From Actinopolymorpha singaporensis (GTDB lineage: Bacteria > Actinomycetota > Actinomycetes > Propionibacteriales > Actinopolymorphaceae): a DNA stretch of 64,000 bases. The notes beneath the pieces were generated by a model. The model saw only the letters and a list, made by a program, of their open reading frames with translations. It did no database searches and was not told the DNA's origin. Below are positions 40,103 to 48,606 of this stretch, one piece after another. The stretch lies in NCBI RefSeq assembly GCF_900104745.1, contig NZ_LT629732.1:5753981-5817980 (forward strand). Reading direction: 5' to 3'. The translations under genes were made by a program, and so were the position numbers. Within the stretch, counting starts at the first letter, position 1. Each line of letters begins with the position of its first letter.

Positions 40103-40996
40103 ATGCCCGACGCAACGCCCGACCCGGTGCCCGGCCTTCAGGTGATCACCGCGGCGCCGACACCGTTCGGTCACGACCAGTCGCTCGACGTCGCCGGGGT
40201 TCGCACCCTGCTCGCCCACGTCGCGACGTACGGCGTGAACGGGGTGCTGGTCGCCGGTACGAACGGCGAGTTCGTCGCGTTGTCCGACGCCGAACGCCTC
40301 GCCGTCGTGGACGCGGCGCTGGAGGTCTGGCCGGACACGGACGGCGTCTACGCCCACGTCGGGGCGGCGACGACGTACCAGGCCGTGGCACTCACCCGGG
40401 CGGCGGTCGGGCTCGGGGCACGCAAGCTCGCCGCGCTCACGCCCTACTACCACCCGGCGAGCCGCCAGGTGGTGCTCGACCACTTCCGAACCGTGGCAGA
40501 CGCGGCCGGCGGAGCGGCGGTGTACGCGTATCTCTTCGAAAGTCTCACCAACACCCGGGTGGACGTGGAACTCCTGGCCGAGCTGGCAACGATCCCAGGC
40601 CTGGCCGGGGTGAAGGTCAGCGGGCAGCCGGTGGACGCGGTGGCGGCCTACCGCGCGGCCCTGCCGCGAGAGTTCGCGGTCTATTCAGGGGCGGACATCG
40701 ACCTGGCCCGGATCCACCGCATCGGTGGCACCGGCGTCGTCTCCGGTGTCTCCGCGGCCTTCCCGGGACCGTTCCTGGACTTGGCCGCGGCGGTGCGGGC
40801 CGGTGACGCGGTGACCGAGCAGCGCGCGCAAGCCGAGGTTGACACGGTGGTCGACGCGCTGTCCGGTGGTACGGCGAGCCTGAAGGCCGCACTGGACCTC
40901 CTGGGGTTGCCGGCCGGTCCGGTGCGGGTCGGCGTCGACCCGCCGTCCGCGCAGGAGTACGACCACATCCGGCAGCTCACCGAGCGGCGACGGTAG
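40103..40996 (+). CDS. Dihydrodipicolinate-synthase-family (DapA-like) aldolase/lyase
   Basis: A 297-residue class I lyase. The Schiff-base Lys171 is in LAGVKVSG; AGTNGEFVAL replaces the usual GTTGE loop; and the tyrosine region reads AVYAYLFES instead of the YNxP seen in DapA, so the pyruvate-carboxylate contact differs. It is therefore probably not the lysine-pathway enzyme but a 2-keto-3-deoxy-sugar-acid or related aldolase. Start ATG 40103 opens the conserved domain within a far longer open frame. It converges on cydC with a 20-bp overlap. Confidence 0.88.
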   Translation: MPDATPDPVPGLQVITAAPTPFGHDQSLDVAGVRTLLAHVATYGVNGVLVAGTNGEFVALSDAERLAVVDAALEVWPDTDGVYAHVGAATTYQAVALTRAAVGLGARKLAALTPYYHPASRQVVLDHFRTVADAAGGAAVYAYLFESLTNTRVDVELLAELATIPGLAGVKVSGQPVDAVAAYRAALPREFAVYSGADIDLARIHRIGGTGVVSGVSAAFPGPFLDLAAAVRAGDAVTEQRAQAEVDTVVDALSGGTASLKAALDLLGLPAGPVRVGVDPPSAQEYDHIRQLTERRR

Positions 40997-42650
40997 GCCC
41001 CAGGTCCAGCACCTCGTCCACCAGATCGGCGGGCACCGCGCGGTGGGTGACCAGGATGACGGTGCGGTCGGCGGTCGCGGCGAGCAGGTCGCGGGTGAGC
41101 GCGGTGGCGTCGGGCTCCGCCAGGTGCTCGGTGGGTTCGTCGAACGCCACCACCGGGGTTCCGGCCAGCAGGCACCGGGCCAGCGCCAGCCGTTGGCGTT
41201 CGCCACCGGACAACCGCTCGCCGTGTTCGCCGACCCTGGTGTGGATGCCGGCTGGGAACGATTCCAGCCGGTCCAGCAGCCGGGCCCGCTCCAGGGCCTG
41301 ACGTACGTCGGCGTCGTCGGCGCCGGGCCGGGCCAGCCGGACGTTCTCGGCGAGGGTGGTGTCGAAGATGTGGGCGTCCTGGGCGCACAGGCTGACCACC
41401 GTACGCACGTCGTCGGTGGCGAACCGGCGTACGTCCACACCGTCCAGGCTGATCCGGCCCCGGCCCGGCTCCACGAACCGCACCAGCGCCTGGGCGAGTG
41501 TGCTCTTGCCGCATCCGCTCGGCCCGACCACGGCGATCCGCCGGCCGGGTGGCAGGTCCAGGTTGACACCGGTGAACACCCACGGCGCGTCCGCCGACCA
41601 GCGCACCGCGAGATCGTCCACCCTCAGGTGGTGCGGGCCGGGCGGCAGAGGCAGTGGGTGCTCGGGTTCGGCGACCGGCTCTGGCGCCGACCGCAGCTGC
41701 GTCAGCCGGGCCAGCGCCGGACGTGCACGCGTGGCGCCCAGCGCCGCTGCCGGGATCGGGGCGAACACGTCGGCCAGGGCCAGCGGGACCAACGCCACCA
41801 CGGCCAGCAGCACCGGGTCCAGCCGGCCACCGGCGACCGCGGGAACCCCCACCGCGAGGCCCACCCAGCAGGCCGCACCGACCGCCAGCACCAGGCCGGC
41901 CGAGCCGAGGCCCGCGCTCCAGGCCGACCTGCGCTCGGCCCGCCGAAGCCGTTCCGTGCCGGCACGCACGTGCTCCAGCACCGGGCCGGTCGCACCGTAG
42001 GCCAGCAGGTCCGGTGCTCCGTCGAGGAGTTCGGTGGTGGCGGTGGCCAGCCGACCGCGCTCGGGAGCGACCGCACGCTCGGCCGCGCGGGCGGACCGGG
42101 CCACCAGCCACGGCACCACGACCAGAGCCAGTCCGACGCCCACCGCGGTCGCCACCCCGGCGGCCGGCAGGACCAGCCCGAGGAACACCGCCGTGGCGGC
42201 GCCGGTGATCCCTGCGGCGGCCACCGGCAGCGCGACCCGCAGGATTACGTCCAGCACCGCGTCCACGTCGGCGACCAGCCGAGCGAGCAGGTCTCCGGAC
42301 CGGAACGCCGACAGCCCGCCGGGAGCCAGCCGTTCCAGCCGGCGGTACGCGTCCGCCCGGACGTCACCCAGCAGCCGGTACGCCGAGTCGTGCGCGAGCA
42401 GCCGTTCGACGTAGCGCAGCACACCCCGGCCGAGCCCGAACGCGCGCACCGCCACGATCGCGACCATCAGCACCAGCACCGGCGGATGCTGGGCGGCCCG
42501 CGAGATCAGCCACGCCGACGTGGCCAGCAGGGCGACGGCACTGGCCGCCGCCGCGACGCCCGCGGCCGCGGCGAGGAGCAGCCGGGCCCCGGCCCTGCGG
42601 GTGTTCCTGGCGATGCGGAGACCCTGCACCACGCGGGTCGTTCTGGTCAT
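40977..42650 (-). CDS. cydC: Cytochrome bd assembly ABC exporter subunit CydC
   Basis: A 557-residue fused membrane-ATPase half transporter. Six membrane segments are followed by an ABC domain with VVGPSGCGKSTLAQ, LSGGERQRLALA and VVAFDEPTEHL. The Q-loop, ordering after cydD and family length support CydC, which with CydD exports cysteine/glutathione and supports haem assembly of the bd oxidase. Its ATG overlaps the cydD stop (ATGA). Confidence 0.94.
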   Translation of the reverse strand: MTRTTRVVQGLRIARNTRRAGARLLLAAAAGVAAAASAVALLATSAWLISRAAQHPPVLVLMVAIVAVRAFGLGRGVLRYVERLLAHDSAYRLLGDVRADAYRRLERLAPGGLSAFRSGDLLARLVADVDAVLDVILRVALPVAAAGITGAATAVFLGLVLPAAGVATAVGVGLALVVVPWLVARSARAAERAVAPERGRLATATTELLDGAPDLLAYGATGPVLEHVRAGTERLRRAERRSAWSAGLGSAGLVLAVGAACWVGLAVGVPAVAGGRLDPVLLAVVALVPLALADVFAPIPAAALGATRARPALARLTQLRSAPEPVAEPEHPLPLPPGPHHLRVDDLAVRWSADAPWVFTGVNLDLPPGRRIAVVGPSGCGKSTLAQALVRFVEPGRGRISLDGVDVRRFATDDVRTVVSLCAQDAHIFDTTLAENVRLARPGADDADVRQALERARLLDRLESFPAGIHTRVGEHGERLSGGERQRLALARCLLAGTPVVAFDEPTEHLAEPDATALTRDLLAATADRTVILVTHRAVPADLVDEVLDLGPTVAAR

Positions 42651-44380
42651 GCGAGCGCTCCGGCGAGGGGGCGACCGGGCCGGGAGGTGGGGGGCGGTCG
42701 CAGAGGTACCTCCACGACCCGGTCGGCAAGTGGGAGAAGCGCCTGACGGTGCGTGACCACGACCGTGGTGACGCCCCTCGTCCGCAGCCGGGCGAGTTCG
42801 GCCCTGACCTGCTCCTCGGTTGCGATGTCCAGTCCGGCGGTGGGTTCGTCCAGCAGCAGCAGGCAGCCGCGGCCGGACGCCAGCCGCCGCTCCACTCGGG
42901 CCAGCGCGCGGGCGAGCGCGACCCGGCGAACCTGCCCGGCGCTCAGACCGGCGCCGCGCTCCCCCACCGGCCGGTCGGCGTCCAGATCAGCGGCACCGGC
43001 GCGGGCCAGGAGGGCCGCGACCTGGCTCCGGCCGGCTTCCGGGTCGCCGATCCGGACGTTGCCGGCCACCGTTCCGGCCAGCAGGTAGGGACGTTGGGGC
43101 ACCCAGGCGACGCCGGCCCGCCAGGCCGCCGGGTCGACGCCGGCCAGGTCGCGCCCATCCGCGAGCACCTGCCCGGACACCGGGGCCACGAAGCCGAGCA
43201 GGCCGGCCAGCAAGGTGGACTTGCCCGCGCCACTCGGCCCGGCGACCGCCACCGTCTCCCCCGGCCGTACGGTCATCGTCAATCCGGCAAGGGCAGGCGC
43301 GTCACGGTCGGGATAGCGGACCTCGAGGTCGCGCACCGTCAAGGTGACCTTGCCCGGGTCGACCGAGAGATCACCGCGATCGGGCAGCGGAGTCTCCAGG
43401 ACGCGGAACGCCTCCTCCGCCGCGGCGAGCCCGTCGGCACTGGCGTGGAAGTGCGTACCCACCATCCGCAACGGCAGGTACGCTTCCGGTGCCAGCACCA
43501 GCACCAGCACCGCGGTTCGCAGGTCCAGCTCACCCTCGACCAGCCGCAGCCCGATCCCGACCGCGACCAGTGCCACCGACAGGGTGGCCAGCAGTTCGAG
43601 GACGAGCGCGGACAGGAACGCGATCCGCAGGGTGGCCAGCGACTCCCGCCGGTGCTCGTCCGACACCTCGCGCAGCGCCCGCGCCTGGGCCTTCGCCCGG
43701 CCGAACAGCTTCAGGGTGGGCAGACCTGCGACGACGTCCGCGAAGTGGTGCGCCAGCACGGCCAGCGCCCGCCACCGCCGCCTGGTACGTGCCCTGGTGG
43801 CCAGCCCCACCAGGACCATGAAGACCGGGATCAGTGGCAGGGTGAGCGCCACGATCACCGCGGAAACCGGATCGGCGGTGAACAGGCACACCACGACGGC
43901 GGCCGGGACGATGGTGGCGAGCACGAGTTGAGGCAGGTAACGCGCGAAGTAGCCGTCCAGCGCGTCCAGGCCGGACGTCACCAACGTGGTCAGCGCGGCC
44001 CGGCGTTCGGTGCCCAGCCAGGACGGCCCGAGCTCGGCCACGTGCTCGGTGATGCGCTGACGCAAGGTCGCCTTGACGGCGGCGGACGAGCGCTGGGCGG
44101 CGACCTCCTGCCCCCAGGCGAGCCCGGCCCTGGCCGCGACGACAAGTCCCAGCAGGGCAAGCGCCCATCCGTACCCCGCTGTCTGCGTCGTCCCCCCACG
44201 CCCACCGGAAGCACCGTCGAACACGCCGCTGATCACGTCGGCCAGCAAGGTGGCCTGGGCGATCACCAGACCGGCCGTCACCGCACCGATCCCGGCGGTC
44301 AGCCCGACGTACACCGCACTCGCCCGGGCGTACCGCAGCAGCCGCGGATCGAGCGGACGCACCGTCGACGACGCGCTCAT
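42647..44380 (-). CDS. cydD: Cytochrome bd assembly ABC exporter subunit CydD
   Basis: A 577-residue half transporter with the CydD-type membrane domain (LRQRITEHVAELGPSWLGTERRA is the first coupling region) and an ABC domain with VAGPSGAGKSTLLAG, LSAGQVRRVALA and LLLLDEPTAGLD. ATG 44380 overlaps the cydB stop by 4 nt and the gene overlaps cydC by 4 nt, so A, B, D and C form one operon. Confidence 0.94.
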   Translation of the reverse strand: MSASSTVRPLDPRLLRYARASAVYVGLTAGIGAVTAGLVIAQATLLADVISGVFDGASGGRGGTTQTAGYGWALALLGLVVAARAGLAWGQEVAAQRSSAAVKATLRQRITEHVAELGPSWLGTERRAALTTLVTSGLDALDGYFARYLPQLVLATIVPAAVVVCLFTADPVSAVIVALTLPLIPVFMVLVGLATRARTRRRWRALAVLAHHFADVVAGLPTLKLFGRAKAQARALREVSDEHRRESLATLRIAFLSALVLELLATLSVALVAVGIGLRLVEGELDLRTAVLVLVLAPEAYLPLRMVGTHFHASADGLAAAEEAFRVLETPLPDRGDLSVDPGKVTLTVRDLEVRYPDRDAPALAGLTMTVRPGETVAVAGPSGAGKSTLLAGLLGFVAPVSGQVLADGRDLAGVDPAAWRAGVAWVPQRPYLLAGTVAGNVRIGDPEAGRSQVAALLARAGAADLDADRPVGERGAGLSAGQVRRVALARALARVERRLASGRGCLLLLDEPTAGLDIATEEQVRAELARLRTRGVTTVVVTHRQALLPLADRVVEVPLRPPPTSRPGRPLAGALA

Positions 44381-45366
44381 CCGGCCACCCGCCTGCGGAA
44401 GACCCAGTACGACCAGCCCTGGTAGGCGAGCACGGCCGGCAGGGTCACCAGCCCGGCCACGGTGAGGACACGCAGCCCGTACGCCGGGGAGGCCTCGGTC
44501 AGCACCGTGAGGTCGTGTGCCCGGCCGACGGTGGACGGCATCAGGGTCGGGAACGCCGAGCAGAAGATCGCCACCACCGTGGCGCCGACCGCTGCCGTGG
44601 TGCCGGCGAACGCCCAGCCGTCGTGGCGCAGGACCACCCCGGCGACCACGCCGAGGGCCGCCACCGCACCGACCAGGTCCACCCACCCGGACAGCCCGCC
44701 GGCAGGGCCCGCTCGCAGCGCGGTCCACAGCCAGAACCCGCCGCCGAGCAGGACCGCCGGAACGCTCGCGACGGCGAGTGCCCGGCTCGCGCGGGCGCGC
44801 AGTTCACCGGTCGTGCGCAGCCGCAGGAACGCTGCACCGTGCAGGAGGCACAGGGCGAGCAACGCGCACCCACCCAGCAGGGCGTACGGATGCAGCAGCG
44901 CGCCGAGGCCGCCGACGAGCACGCCGCGTCCGTCCAGCGGAAGGCCCCGGGCCGCGCCGGCCAGCGCGACGCCCCACGCCAACGGCGGGAGGGCCGAGCC
45001 GACCGCCACCCCCAGATCGCACCTGCGGCGCCAGCGGTCGTCGTCGTGCTTGCCGCGGAACTCCAGTGCGACTCCACGCAGGATGAGCGCGACCAGGATC
45101 GCCACCAGCGGGAGGTAGTAGACGCTCGTCAGGGTGGCGTACCACCCCGGGAACGCCGCGAACATCGCGCCGCCGGCCACCACGAGCCACACCTCGTTGC
45201 CGTCCCAGACGGGCGCGATGGTGGACAGCAACTTCCCTCGCTCGGCTTCGTCGCGGCCGAGCACGCGGGCGAGCACTCCGACTCCGAAGTCGAAGCCCTC
45301 CAGGACGAAGTAGAGCGTCCAGAAGAAGACGATCAACCCGAACCACAGCGTCGGCAGGTCCATCAT
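44377..45366 (-). CDS. cydB: Cytochrome bd ubiquinol oxidase subunit II
   Basis: A 329-residue membrane protein starting MMDLPTLWFGLIVFFWTLYFVLEGFDFGVG, the hallmark CydB N-terminus, with GNEVWLVVAGGAMFAAFP and LALEFRGKH-type motifs following. Eight to nine hydrophobic segments are seen. It pairs with CydA as the structural subunit. Two adjacent ATG codons are available at 45366 and 45363. Confidence 0.96.
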   Translation of the reverse strand: MMDLPTLWFGLIVFFWTLYFVLEGFDFGVGVLARVLGRDEAERGKLLSTIAPVWDGNEVWLVVAGGAMFAAFPGWYATLTSVYYLPLVAILVALILRGVALEFRGKHDDDRWRRRCDLGVAVGSALPPLAWGVALAGAARGLPLDGRGVLVGGLGALLHPYALLGGCALLALCLLHGAAFLRLRTTGELRARASRALAVASVPAVLLGGGFWLWTALRAGPAGGLSGWVDLVGAVAALGVVAGVVLRHDGWAFAGTTAAVGATVVAIFCSAFPTLMPSTVGRAHDLTVLTEASPAYGLRVLTVAGLVTLPAVLAYQGWSYWVFRRRVAG

Positions 45367-45379
45367 TGCGGCCCTTTCG

Positions 45380-46831
45380 TCAGTAGGCGAAGGTGATCGG
45401 GCGGTCGGCCTCGTCGGCCTCCCGGTCGCCGGAGTCACGCCCGGGCGGTACGAGATCCGCACCGTCACCGTCGCCGGGCGGCAGGTCGGGTACCTGCCGG
45501 GCGACCCGCCGCAGCAGGCCGAGTTCCACCACCGCCATCACCCCGTACACGAGCGTGAACACGCCCAGCGACACGACCACCTGCCAGGCGGCGGTGCCCG
45601 GCGAAACACCGTCCGCGGTCTGGAACAGCCCGTACGCGAGCCACGGTTGACGGCCGCCCTCGGTGAACAACCAGCCGAAGCTGTTGGCCAGCAGCGGGAG
45701 GAACGGCACCGTCAGCGCGACCCGGGGCACCCAGCGGTTGGCGAGCAACCCCGGCTTGCGCAGCACCACCAGCCCCACCAGGGCGAGGAACGCCGCGAGC
45801 AGACCGAAGCCCATCATCAGCCGGAAGCTCCAGTAGGTCACCGGCACGTTCGGCACGTAGTCGCCGGGCCCGAACGCCGCGACCGCCTTGTGCTGCAGCT
45901 GGTTGACGCCCTCCACCTTGCCGGTGAAGCTGCCGGTGGCCAGGAACGACAGCAGGTCCGGGAAGCGGAAGCTCCACAGTTCTCGCCGGCCGTCCGCCGT
46001 CCCCAGGGTCAGCAGCGAGAACCCCGCCGGCTGCTCGGTGTCGAACAGCCCCTCGGCCGCGGCCACCTTCATCGGCTGCAGCTGGGTCATCAGCTTCATC
46101 ATCGAGTCACCGGTGACCACCACGCCCAGGGCCGCGACGACCACGACACTCGAACCCACCTTGGCCGCGGTACGAAACGCCGCCCGAGCGGCCTCGGTCG
46201 CCTTCGGGCGGGCCAGGTGCCAGAACGCCACACCCGCCACCAGGGCACCGCCGGTGAGCAGGCACGCGGCCGCGGTGTGCAGGCCGGCCTCGATCGCGAC
46301 CGGGTTCGTCAGCAGGGCGGTGAAGTCGGTGAGTTCGGCCCTTCCGGTCGCCGGGTCGATCCGGTAGCCGACGGGATGCTGCATCCACGCGTTGACGCTC
46401 AGGATGACGTACGCCGAGATCTGGGTTCCGATGGCGACCACCCAGATGCAGCCGAGGTGCACCGCCCGCGGCAGCCGGTCCCAGCCGAACACCCACAGGC
46501 CGAGGAACGTCGACTCCAGGAAGAAGGCGAGCAGTCCCTCGATCGCAAGCGGTACGCCGAAGATGTCGCCGACGAACCGCGAGTAGGCACTCCAGTTCAT
46601 CCCGAACTGGAACTCCTGGATCAGCCCGGTGACGATGCCGACCGCGAAGTTGACGATGAAGATCTTGCCGAAGAACTTCGTCAACGTGAGGTAGCGCTGC
46701 GCCTTCGTGACGAACCACGCGGTCTGCAGCCCGGCCACGATCGCCGACAGGCCGATCGACAGCGGAACGAAGAGGAAGTGGTAGACGGTGGTGATGCCGA
46801 ACTGCCACCGCGCGAGGTCGACTGCACCCAT
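45380..46831 (-). CDS. cydA: Cytochrome bd ubiquinol oxidase subunit I
   Basis: The catalytic quinol oxidase subunit, reducing O2 to water with high affinity. His18 (TTVYHFLFVPLSIG) is the equivalent of the haem ligand His19. FAVGIVTGLIQEFQFGMNW and GRQPW (393-397) are conserved, and nine-plus membrane segments are present. At 483 residues it is the short-Q-loop type. The C-terminal tail is acidic. It is the first gene of cydABDC. Two overlapping BlaI-type palindromes lie 8-39 bp upstream of the ATG, predicting repression by the BlaI encoded 1.4 kb away. Confidence 0.97.
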   Translation of the reverse strand: MGAVDLARWQFGITTVYHFLFVPLSIGLSAIVAGLQTAWFVTKAQRYLTLTKFFGKIFIVNFAVGIVTGLIQEFQFGMNWSAYSRFVGDIFGVPLAIEGLLAFFLESTFLGLWVFGWDRLPRAVHLGCIWVVAIGTQISAYVILSVNAWMQHPVGYRIDPATGRAELTDFTALLTNPVAIEAGLHTAAACLLTGGALVAGVAFWHLARPKATEAARAAFRTAAKVGSSVVVVAALGVVVTGDSMMKLMTQLQPMKVAAAEGLFDTEQPAGFSLLTLGTADGRRELWSFRFPDLLSFLATGSFTGKVEGVNQLQHKAVAAFGPGDYVPNVPVTYWSFRLMMGFGLLAAFLALVGLVVLRKPGLLANRWVPRVALTVPFLPLLANSFGWLFTEGGRQPWLAYGLFQTADGVSPGTAAWQVVVSLGVFTLVYGVMAVVELGLLRRVARQVPDLPPGDGDGADLVPPGRDSGDREADEADRPITFAY

Positions 46832-46838
46832 GCCTGAA

Positions 46839-46855
46839 TACTACTTCTTGTAGTA
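46839..46855. promoter_or_regulatory. BlaI-type operator 1 upstream of cydA
   Basis: TACTACTTCTTGTAGTA: perfect 6-bp arms TACTAC/GTAGTA with a 5-bp spacer, 7 bp from the cydA start codon. The arms match the general TACnAC/GTnGTA form of BlaI/MecI/CopY-family operators. It shares TA with the next palindrome. Confidence 0.7.
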
Positions 46856-46870
46856 CGACAGAGCGTCGTA
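46854..46870. promoter_or_regulatory. BlaI-type operator 2 upstream of cydA
   Basis: TACGACAGAGCGTCGTA: perfect arms TACGAC/GTCGTA with a 5-bp spacer. It differs from the site in front of blaI (48177-48193) only within the spacer. It overlaps operator 1 by 2 bp, so two dimers could bind side by side over the cydA promoter. Confidence 0.75.
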
Positions 46871-46922
46871 ACCTTGCTCACACCGGTCAGGCGCGGTGAT
46901 GCGGGGGAAGTGCTCGCTCCGC

Positions 46923-48146
46923 CTACGTGAGCTTGCGGGGACGAGGGCGGAACGCCCAGGCCAGGCGCGGCTCGACCGCCCACCTGGTCGCCGCCCGGAC
47001 CGGCGGCGTCGACAACAGCCCGGCCAGCGCGATGCCACCCACCGCGGCGGCCAGGACGCCGAGAGTGGTGTGCAGCGCGGGGTGGTCGTACCACCCGAGG
47101 TAGTCGGCCACCTTCACCGGCACGCCGTGCAGGAGGTAGACGTACAACGTGATCGCACCAAGGCCGGTGAACCACGTCTTCCTCGAGGGCACGAGCGCGA
47201 GGAACGCCGCGGACAGGATCGTCGCGCAGACCAGCATCCCCGTCCGCATGGCCGTACCGGTGAGGTTGTCCACCCCGAGATAGTCGTTGCTGCGGCGCCA
47301 GAAGACCCACTCCACGCTCATCCGGGTCTGCGCCCAGTAGGCGACAACCAGGCCTGCGGCCAGCACCGGAACGGCGAGGATCCGCACCCAGCGCCGCCGC
47401 AGGTAGGCGAAGTGCTCCGGCTTCAGCATCATCCCCAGCACGAAGAACGGCAGCAGGCTGAGGATCCGGCCGGTTTCCAGCACGCCCGGAAGCTCCTGCA
47501 GCCCGGCCGCCAAGGAGATCAGCACCGCCACCGCCAGCGGCCGGCGGATCCGCAGCCAGACCGGCGTCGACAGCCGCCAGGCGAACAACGCCAGCAGGAA
47601 CCACACCAGGAAGTACGGGTCGAGCAAGGTCGGGTTGACATCGTGGCCGCCGACGAACTTTCCGAGCAGCATGTACACGATCTGGAAGAGGACGTACGGC
47701 GCGAGCAACTGCGTGATGAGCTTGCGGGCCTTGTTCCTGGAGAACGGGAAGCGCCGGGAGAAGTAGCCGGACACGATGATGAACACCGGCATGTGGAACA
47801 TGTACAGGAAGAGGTAGAGCGCGCGGCCCGCCGGCACGTCACGCAACGCCTCCATCGCGTGACCGGCCACCACCAGCACGATGGCGATGTACTTCGCGTT
47901 GTCGAAGAACGGGTCGCGCGTCTTCTCCGCCCACCCGGCGGCCTCGGACCCGGTTCCGGTGGCGGCACCCTCGGTTGCGGCACCCTCCCTCGCACCACTG
48001 TGCTGGACGTCACCTTCCAGGGACGGTCCCACCGGGTCGGACGAGGGGGCTCCGGGATCAGCGGCAGATGTCACCACCGGCGGGACGATACCTACCGGCC
48101 CGGCGGCGGCCAAACCGCGTGACGCCTGCCGCGTGAGCGAAACCAC
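46923..48146 (-). CDS. Acyltransferase-3 family membrane protein
   Basis: A membrane O-acyltransferase-like protein of about 407 residues. The core begins DPFFDNAKYIAIVLVVAGHAMEAL (the catalytic His of acyltransferase 3 is in AGHAME), with FHMPVFIIVSGYFSRR and about ten hydrophobic helices. The start is uncertain: about 85 N-terminal residues are disordered, and GTG 48146 is chosen as the most upstream start that leaves the blaI operator intergenic; later GTG codons are possible. It probably modifies a surface glycan or lipid. It is divergent from blaI, so the shared operator may affect both. Confidence 0.82.
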   Translation of the reverse strand: MVSLTRQASRGLAAAGPVGIVPPVVTSAADPGAPSSDPVGPSLEGDVQHSGAREGAATEGAATGTGSEAAGWAEKTRDPFFDNAKYIAIVLVVAGHAMEALRDVPAGRALYLFLYMFHMPVFIIVSGYFSRRFPFSRNKARKLITQLLAPYVLFQIVYMLLGKFVGGHDVNPTLLDPYFLVWFLLALFAWRLSTPVWLRIRRPLAVAVLISLAAGLQELPGVLETGRILSLLPFFVLGMMLKPEHFAYLRRRWVRILAVPVLAAGLVVAYWAQTRMSVEWVFWRRSNDYLGVDNLTGTAMRTGMLVCATILSAAFLALVPSRKTWFTGLGAITLYVYLLHGVPVKVADYLGWYDHPALHTTLGVLAAAVGGIALAGLLSTPPVRAATRWAVEPRLAWAFRPRPRKLT

Positions 48147-48176
48147 AGCGCCCGGTACCGACCGAGAACGCCCGAG

Positions 48177-48193
48177 TACGACACAGCGTCGTA
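48177..48193. promoter_or_regulatory. BlaI-type operator upstream of blaI
   Basis: TACGACACAGCGTCGTA: perfect arms TACGAC/GTCGTA with a 5-bp spacer, 11 bp upstream of the blaI ATG and about 30 bp from the favoured start of the divergent acyltransferase gene. It fits autorepression of blaI and the M56 peptidase gene. Confidence 0.75.
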
Positions 48194-48204
48194 GAATCGC
48201 GGAC

Positions 48205-48606
48205 ATGGCGCGGTTGGGAAACCTCGAACGCGAGGTCATGGAACACGTCTGGTCCGCCAAGGATCCGGTCACGGTCCGCGAGGTCCACGAGGCGCTCGCG
48301 GTCGAACGTGACCTGGCCTACACCACGGTGATGACGGTCCTGGACCGGCTGGCGAAGAAGGGTGTCGTACGCCGCGTGCGCGACGGCCGCGCCTACCGCT
48401 ACGAGGCGGCCGCGGGCCAGGACCAACTGGTCGCCGACCTGATGCGTGAGGCGCTCGACGGAGCCGGCAGCGGCGCCAACCGGGCCGCCGCCCTCGTCCG
48501 GTTCGTCGACCAGGCGTCCCCGGAGGAGGCAGCCGCCCTGCGTGAGGCCCTCGCCGAGGTGGACGCACTCGCCCCCCGGCCCCGCCGACGGACCCCCCGG
48601 AGCTGA
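48205..48606 (+). CDS. blaI: BlaI/MecI/CopY-family transcriptional repressor
   Basis: A 133-residue penicillinase-repressor-type winged helix protein. The N-terminal DNA-binding domain is LGNLEREVMEHVWSAKD, VREVHEALAVERDLAYTTVMTVLDRLAKKGVVRR; the C-terminal dimerisation helices follow, with a basic tail. ATG 48205 fits the conserved start. It is followed after 1 bp by an M56 metalloprotease gene, the partner expected to relieve repression. Matching operators in front of itself and of cydA suggest a respiratory rather than a beta-lactamase regulon; no beta-lactamase gene is present in the window. Confidence 0.93.
   Translation: MARLGNLEREVMEHVWSAKDPVTVREVHEALAVERDLAYTTVMTVLDRLAKKGVVRRVRDGRAYRYEAAAGQDQLVADLMREALDGAGSGANRAAALVRFVDQASPEEAAALREALAEVDALAPRPRRRTPRS

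Follow-up and report, generated by a model that had tools for sequence, protein, structure and literature searches.

Introduction

The operators of the staphylococcal repressors BlaI and MecI are TAC...GTA dyads, as at the locus described here, and similar TACA-type dyads serve the CopY-type repressors, which belong to the DNA-binding family of BlaI. Cytochrome bd operons are also known to be regulated by other means; in Streptomyces, cydABCD is under the Rex repressor, whose signal is NADH/NAD. In mycobacteria the alternative oxidase contributes to drug tolerance towards respiratory inhibitors. In Mycobacterium tuberculosis, BlaI binds the promoters of cytochrome bd and of ATP synthase, according to a 2017 eLife paper (PMC5473688, citing Sala et al. 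2009). The original prediction for the present locus had named mycobacterial BlaI as a regulator of bioenergetic genes as well as a beta-lactamase, and set beside that same source the statement proves correct, even understated. Since the tuberculosis link between BlaI and cytochrome bd has already been published (PMC5473688), the predicted BlaI control of cyd genes at this locus is not new in kind.

Results

The window, by which we mean the whole 64-kb stretch of Actinopolymorpha singaporensis DNA analysed here, carries a complete cydA-cydB-cydD-cydC operon on the minus strand, running from 46831 to 40977, together with a BlaI-family repressor gene and, directly 3' of it, an M56 metalloprotease gene (Table 1). 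In the genus of the window an acyltransferase-3 gene separates cydA from blaI. Its GTG start was inferred by comparison with relatives, its orientation is divergent from that of blaI, and the blaI operator may serve its promoter as well.

Table 1. Features of the cyd-blaI locus in window coordinates
Feature	Position	Strand	Basis
cydC-type ABC transporter, cyd operon	40977-42650	-	Pfam ABC_membrane + ABC_tran
cydD-type ABC transporter, cyd operon	42647-44380	-	Pfam ABC_membrane + ABC_tran
cydB, cytochrome bd oxidase subunit II	44377-45363	-	Pfam PF02322, E 9e-95
cydA, cytochrome bd oxidase subunit I	45380-46831	-	Pfam PF01654, E 4.5e-156
Inferred -10 element of cydA, TAGTAT	46838-46843	-	read from sequence; kept in 6/6 genus members
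Operator O1 of cydA, BlaI-type, TACTAC-N5-GTAGTA, TACTACTTCTTGTAGTA	46839-46855		exact palindrome
Operator O2 of cydA, BlaI-type, TACGAC-N5-GTCGTA, TACGACAGAGCGTCGTA	46854-46870		exact palindrome
Acyltransferase-3 family gene, cydA/blaI interval	46923-48074	-	PF01757, E 4.1e-28
Operator of blaI, BlaI-type, TACGAC-N5-GTCGTA, TACGACACAGCGTCGTA	48177-48193		exact palindrome
Inferred -10 element of blaI, TAGAAT	48192-48197	+	read from sequence; overlaps operator right arm
blaI, winged-helix repressor, Penicillinase_R family	48205-48606	+	PF03965, E 5e-30, residues 4-117
blaR-like M56 membrane metalloprotease, 310 aa	48608-49540	+	weak PF05569 below cut-off; PF01435 match

The three palindromes on which the original prediction was built were all found exactly where it had placed them. 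O1 and O2 overlap by 2 bp, O1 being the nearer to cydA with a gap of 7 bp to the ATG at 46831, and the blaI operator lies 11 bp before the blaI ATG at 48205. Such sites are rare. With up to one mismatch allowed, TACNAC-N5-GTNGTA has five matches in the window against 0.23 expected, a number reached in none of 100 shuffles; for exact TACKAC-N5-GTMGTA sites, the base use of the window gives an expectation of 0.002 per 64 kb, close to the figure of roughly 0.004 in the original prediction. Across the 6.4-Mb genome (one contig), exact TACKAC-N5-GTMGTA sites number four, three of them inside a 1.36-kb stretch of the window, and the reversed pattern that served as a control occurs once. Two of the four lie at cydA, one at blaI and one at a membrane protein gene. 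Sites with one mismatch are in no excess genome-wide (48 against 72 for the reversed control), and the informative sites are therefore the exact ones only.

At both promoters the palindromes meet a putative -10 element. TAGTAT of cydA is partly made by the right arm of O1, and a TAGAAT or TAGGAT stands at the corresponding place before blaI, 7-8 bp from the start codon, in 8/8 genomes of the family. A scan with the sigma-70 consensus found no promoter and did not detect the cydA element, so that conservation is the basis of the -10 assignment. Read in this way, the elements predict a leaderless cydA transcript that would start at the ATG, and likewise a leaderless blaI transcript. Just upstream of the cydA operators, at 46870-46890 of the window, the genus conserves TGTGA and, 6 bp further on, TTACGA; this resembles a CRP/FNR-type half-site, and cydA may have a second regulator.

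The family of the window lies in the Propionibacteriales, separate from the families of Kribbella, Nocardioides and Propionibacterium. Each of the six genus genomes has the tandem operators, at -39 and -24 relative to the cydA ATG: O1 is identical in four, with its core kept in 6/6, and O2 is kept in 6/6, while the region farther upstream of cydA diverges. In the other two genera of the family the cydA operators are present at shifted positions, and the blaI operator is kept in 8/8 family genomes. Thus, when relatives with both blaI and cydA were checked for loss of the palindromes, the sites at cydA proved to be retained in all members of genus and family. In the genus, blaI lies 1.3 kb from cydA, beyond the acyltransferase gene, and has its own operator.

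A scan of 395 genomes of the class for two exact operators in tandem, made without any gene criterion, leads back to the same gene. At the 19-bp spacing, 23 of 23 tandem places lie directly upstream of cydA; at the 15-bp spacing found in the window, 4 of 5 do so; and both spacings together give 27 of 28, with no match to the reversed-pattern control in the same 395 genomes. The sole tandem operator without cydA nearby is L306:1501-1532 (genome G197), beside which no convincing gene was recognised. Six of the 27 tandem cydA loci (L283, L284, L292-L294 and the window, L307) lack an immediately neighbouring blaI. Single exact operators precede the cydA genes of the genus Mycobacterium in 18 of the 18 found, and in Micromonospora the cydA operators are kept and no blaI was found in the fetched locus. 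Because in several lineages cydA keeps its operators without an adjacent blaI, the sites serve cydA and not blaI autoregulation alone. Where a single intergenic region lies between blaI and cydA, as in most genomes, the sites by themselves cannot assign the target gene.

Across the order we sampled 60 cydA genes from about 58 genomes and sought an exact site within 300 bp upstream. Such a site is present at 33, of which 32 have blaI divergently adjacent within about 240 bp; at the lone operator-bearing exception (G104) blaI lies about 6 kb from cydA. Among the 27 cydA genes without an exact site, 25 have no adjacent blaI, and for the majority of these 25 genomes no BlaI match reaches E<=1e-12; the other two have blaI adjacent and a site with one mismatch. 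The association of site with adjacent blaI gives a Fisher p of 1.7e-13, a value that ignores shared ancestry. This co-occurrence implies that operators and regulator are gained or lost together. The link between BlaI and cydA is not universal, since the site is missing from about half of the Nocardioides-type cydA genes in the sample and the Streptomyces cydA genes examined have no exact BlaI operator. Taken together, the conservation of the sites in genus and family, in the order and in Mycobacterium lends strong support to the original prediction that BlaI would control cytochrome bd.

The blaI product has M. tuberculosis BlaI (2g9w) as its best PDB match, aligned along its length with an E of 1.1e-37. 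The genome holds four Penicillinase_R genes, that is, three besides the one at 48205, whose upstream regions contain TACTAC-N7-GTAGTA, CCTACA-N5-TGTAGG and, in the third case, no obvious motif. Since these dyads differ, the gene at 48205 is the best candidate for the regulator of the N5 operators. In a tree whose columns are too few to resolve deep branches, and whose deep support is accordingly weak, the 48205 protein groups with cydA-linked BlaI proteins and M. tuberculosis BlaI rather than with its own paralogues. At two paralogue loci (L151 and L154, genome 3711333 and 5922432) the upstream dyads are conserved and differ in spacing or half-sites, which suggests that operator spacing insulates BlaI-family paralogues from one another.

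The M56 protein carries the zinc protease motif HExxH (H179, E180, H183) and, downstream, the glutamate ligand E220, all invariant in 72/72 homologues. The 310-aa protein has no Pfam match to a penicillin-binding sensor domain, and its homologues are uniformly short at 279-357 aa; lacking that domain, it probably responds to a signal other than a beta-lactam, and signals arising when the respiratory chain or the membrane is disturbed are the likelier class. The mycobacterial BlaR likewise lacks a sensor domain (PMC5473688). A transposon screen in M. tuberculosis scored blaR as essential for obtaining iron from haem or haemoglobin (PMC7058343), and cydAB rises together with blaI-blaR under amoxicillin-clavulanate (PMC5473688). 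As leads, these reports point towards respiration, iron or redox.

The fourth exact site of the genome (3042476-3042492; L173:6477-6493) lies 65 bp before the gene of a 115-aa multi-pass membrane protein of no Pfam family, and is kept before it in 7/7 family genomes that have the gene. Conservation of this site beyond the family was rejected (0/23 examined outside). So was an ATP synthase target: the atpB loci of 13 genomes, the present one among them, have no site even when one mismatch is allowed and 1.5 kb is included on either side. General control of copC copper genes was likewise rejected, with a site at 2 of 30 Nocardioidaceae-like copC loci, both in one genus. In that genus (L184:4255-4271 and L186:5340-5356 in G003; L282 in G025), exact cyd-type operators lie about 40 bp before copC and, in G003, also just after a CopA-type P-ATPase gene and before a CopC/Dyp peroxidase/PepSY cluster, which hints at a copper link of the BlaI circuit there.

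Discussion

Overall, we consider it very likely that a BlaI/M56 switch controls cydABDC at this locus. What the analysis shows is that the sites exist and are conserved, that they are linked almost exclusively to cydA, and that they go with the presence of blaI; binding, repression, proteolytic relief and the signal are predictions. In the model we propose, a dimer of BlaI would bind TACKAC-N5-GTMGTA before blaI and, as a tandem pair, before cydABDC. The right arm of the operator overlaps the inferred -10 box at both promoters, and bound BlaI would consequently block RNA polymerase at each. On a signal, the co-transcribed M56 protease would inactivate BlaI, as in the BlaR1-BlaI paradigm, and this would release cydABDC and blaI-blaR together. 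The predicted outcome is a negatively autoregulated switch that turns the alternative oxidase on.

An alternative model is that the palindromes serve blaI autoregulation only, and that they stand near cydA simply because blaI and cydA are commonly divergent neighbours. The arrangement in most operator-bearing genomes of the order, where blaI is divergent and within about 240 bp of cydA, would fit such a model. The genus of the window does not, for its cydA keeps the tandem pair in all six genomes although blaI is 1.3 kb off with an operator of its own, and the model is further contradicted by Micromonospora, Mycobacterium and other lineages that have cydA operators and no adjacent blaI; we regard it as very improbable. 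Just as little weight falls, in our judgement, on the view that the sites are regulatory but are recognised by a different BlaI-family paralogue, or by some factor unrelated to that family. The genome does encode four Penicillinase_R proteins, and paralogue B has similar TACTAC half-sites upstream, but the paralogue motifs differ by their N7 spacing or CCTACA half-site, the gene at 48205 is the only one among them with an N5 operator matching that of cydA, and the cydA-adjacent BlaI proteins elsewhere are orthologues of its product.

A different question is what the circuit is for. BlaI and the M56 protein might respond to beta-lactams, with cydA a side target that aids survival under stress, a reading encouraged by the family name, by the repression of blaC by M. 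tuberculosis BlaI and by the joint induction of cydAB and blaI-blaR with amoxicillin-clavulanate (PMC5473688). Against it stand the M56 protein without a penicillin-binding sensor domain, the one further exact operator in the genome, which precedes the gene of the 115-aa membrane protein and not a beta-lactamase, and the class-wide marking of cydA by tandem operators. We therefore find a beta-lactam resistance circuit unlikely and return to the respiratory switch. Going further, and with something short of even confidence, we suggest that the actinobacterial BlaI-M56 pair may be a respiratory switch at root, with cydABDC its class-wide target and the M56 protein sensing trouble in electron transport or the membrane (possibly the status of oxidase, haem or copper), and that mycobacterial beta-lactamase control may be a later addition.

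The regulator named in tuberculosis for a beta-lactamase appears, across the class, to be tied most consistently to an alternative respiratory oxidase. The comparative map gives a conserved operator and lineages in which blaI and cydA are separated, and it offers harmless soil relatives in which the signal of the sensor-less BlaR proteins could be sought.

Set against the known systems, the locus shares with staphylococcal BlaI/MecI-BlaR1/MecR1 a winged-helix repressor family and an M56 protease partner, whereas the extracellular penicillin-binding sensor of BlaR1 and its target, a beta-lactamase or PBP2a gene, have no counterpart here. CopY itself binds the metal and works without an M56 partner, while here an M56 gene follows blaI. 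In Streptomyces, Rex represses the same type of operon, but the regulator and the signal are others, and the cydA genes examined there are without exact BlaI operators. Closest is the BlaI-BlaR pair of M. tuberculosis (Rv1846c-Rv1845c; PMC5473688, PMC12565901), which provides the closest solved homologue (2g9w), has an adjacent M56 protein without a sensor domain, and belongs to a genus with the same operator type before cydA in 18/18 genomes, the cytochrome bd promoter being a reported target. It differs in that the M. tuberculosis regulator acts on blaC, sigC and the atp operon as well, whereas no operator was found near atpB in the family of the window, and the fourth site of the window's genome belongs to the 115-aa membrane protein gene. 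A literature search that reached a minority of subscription journals found no paper on a BlaI-cyd link outside mycobacteria or on its class-wide breadth. What is added here is that breadth: cydA looks like a shared target in much of the class, also in lineages where blaI has moved away from it.
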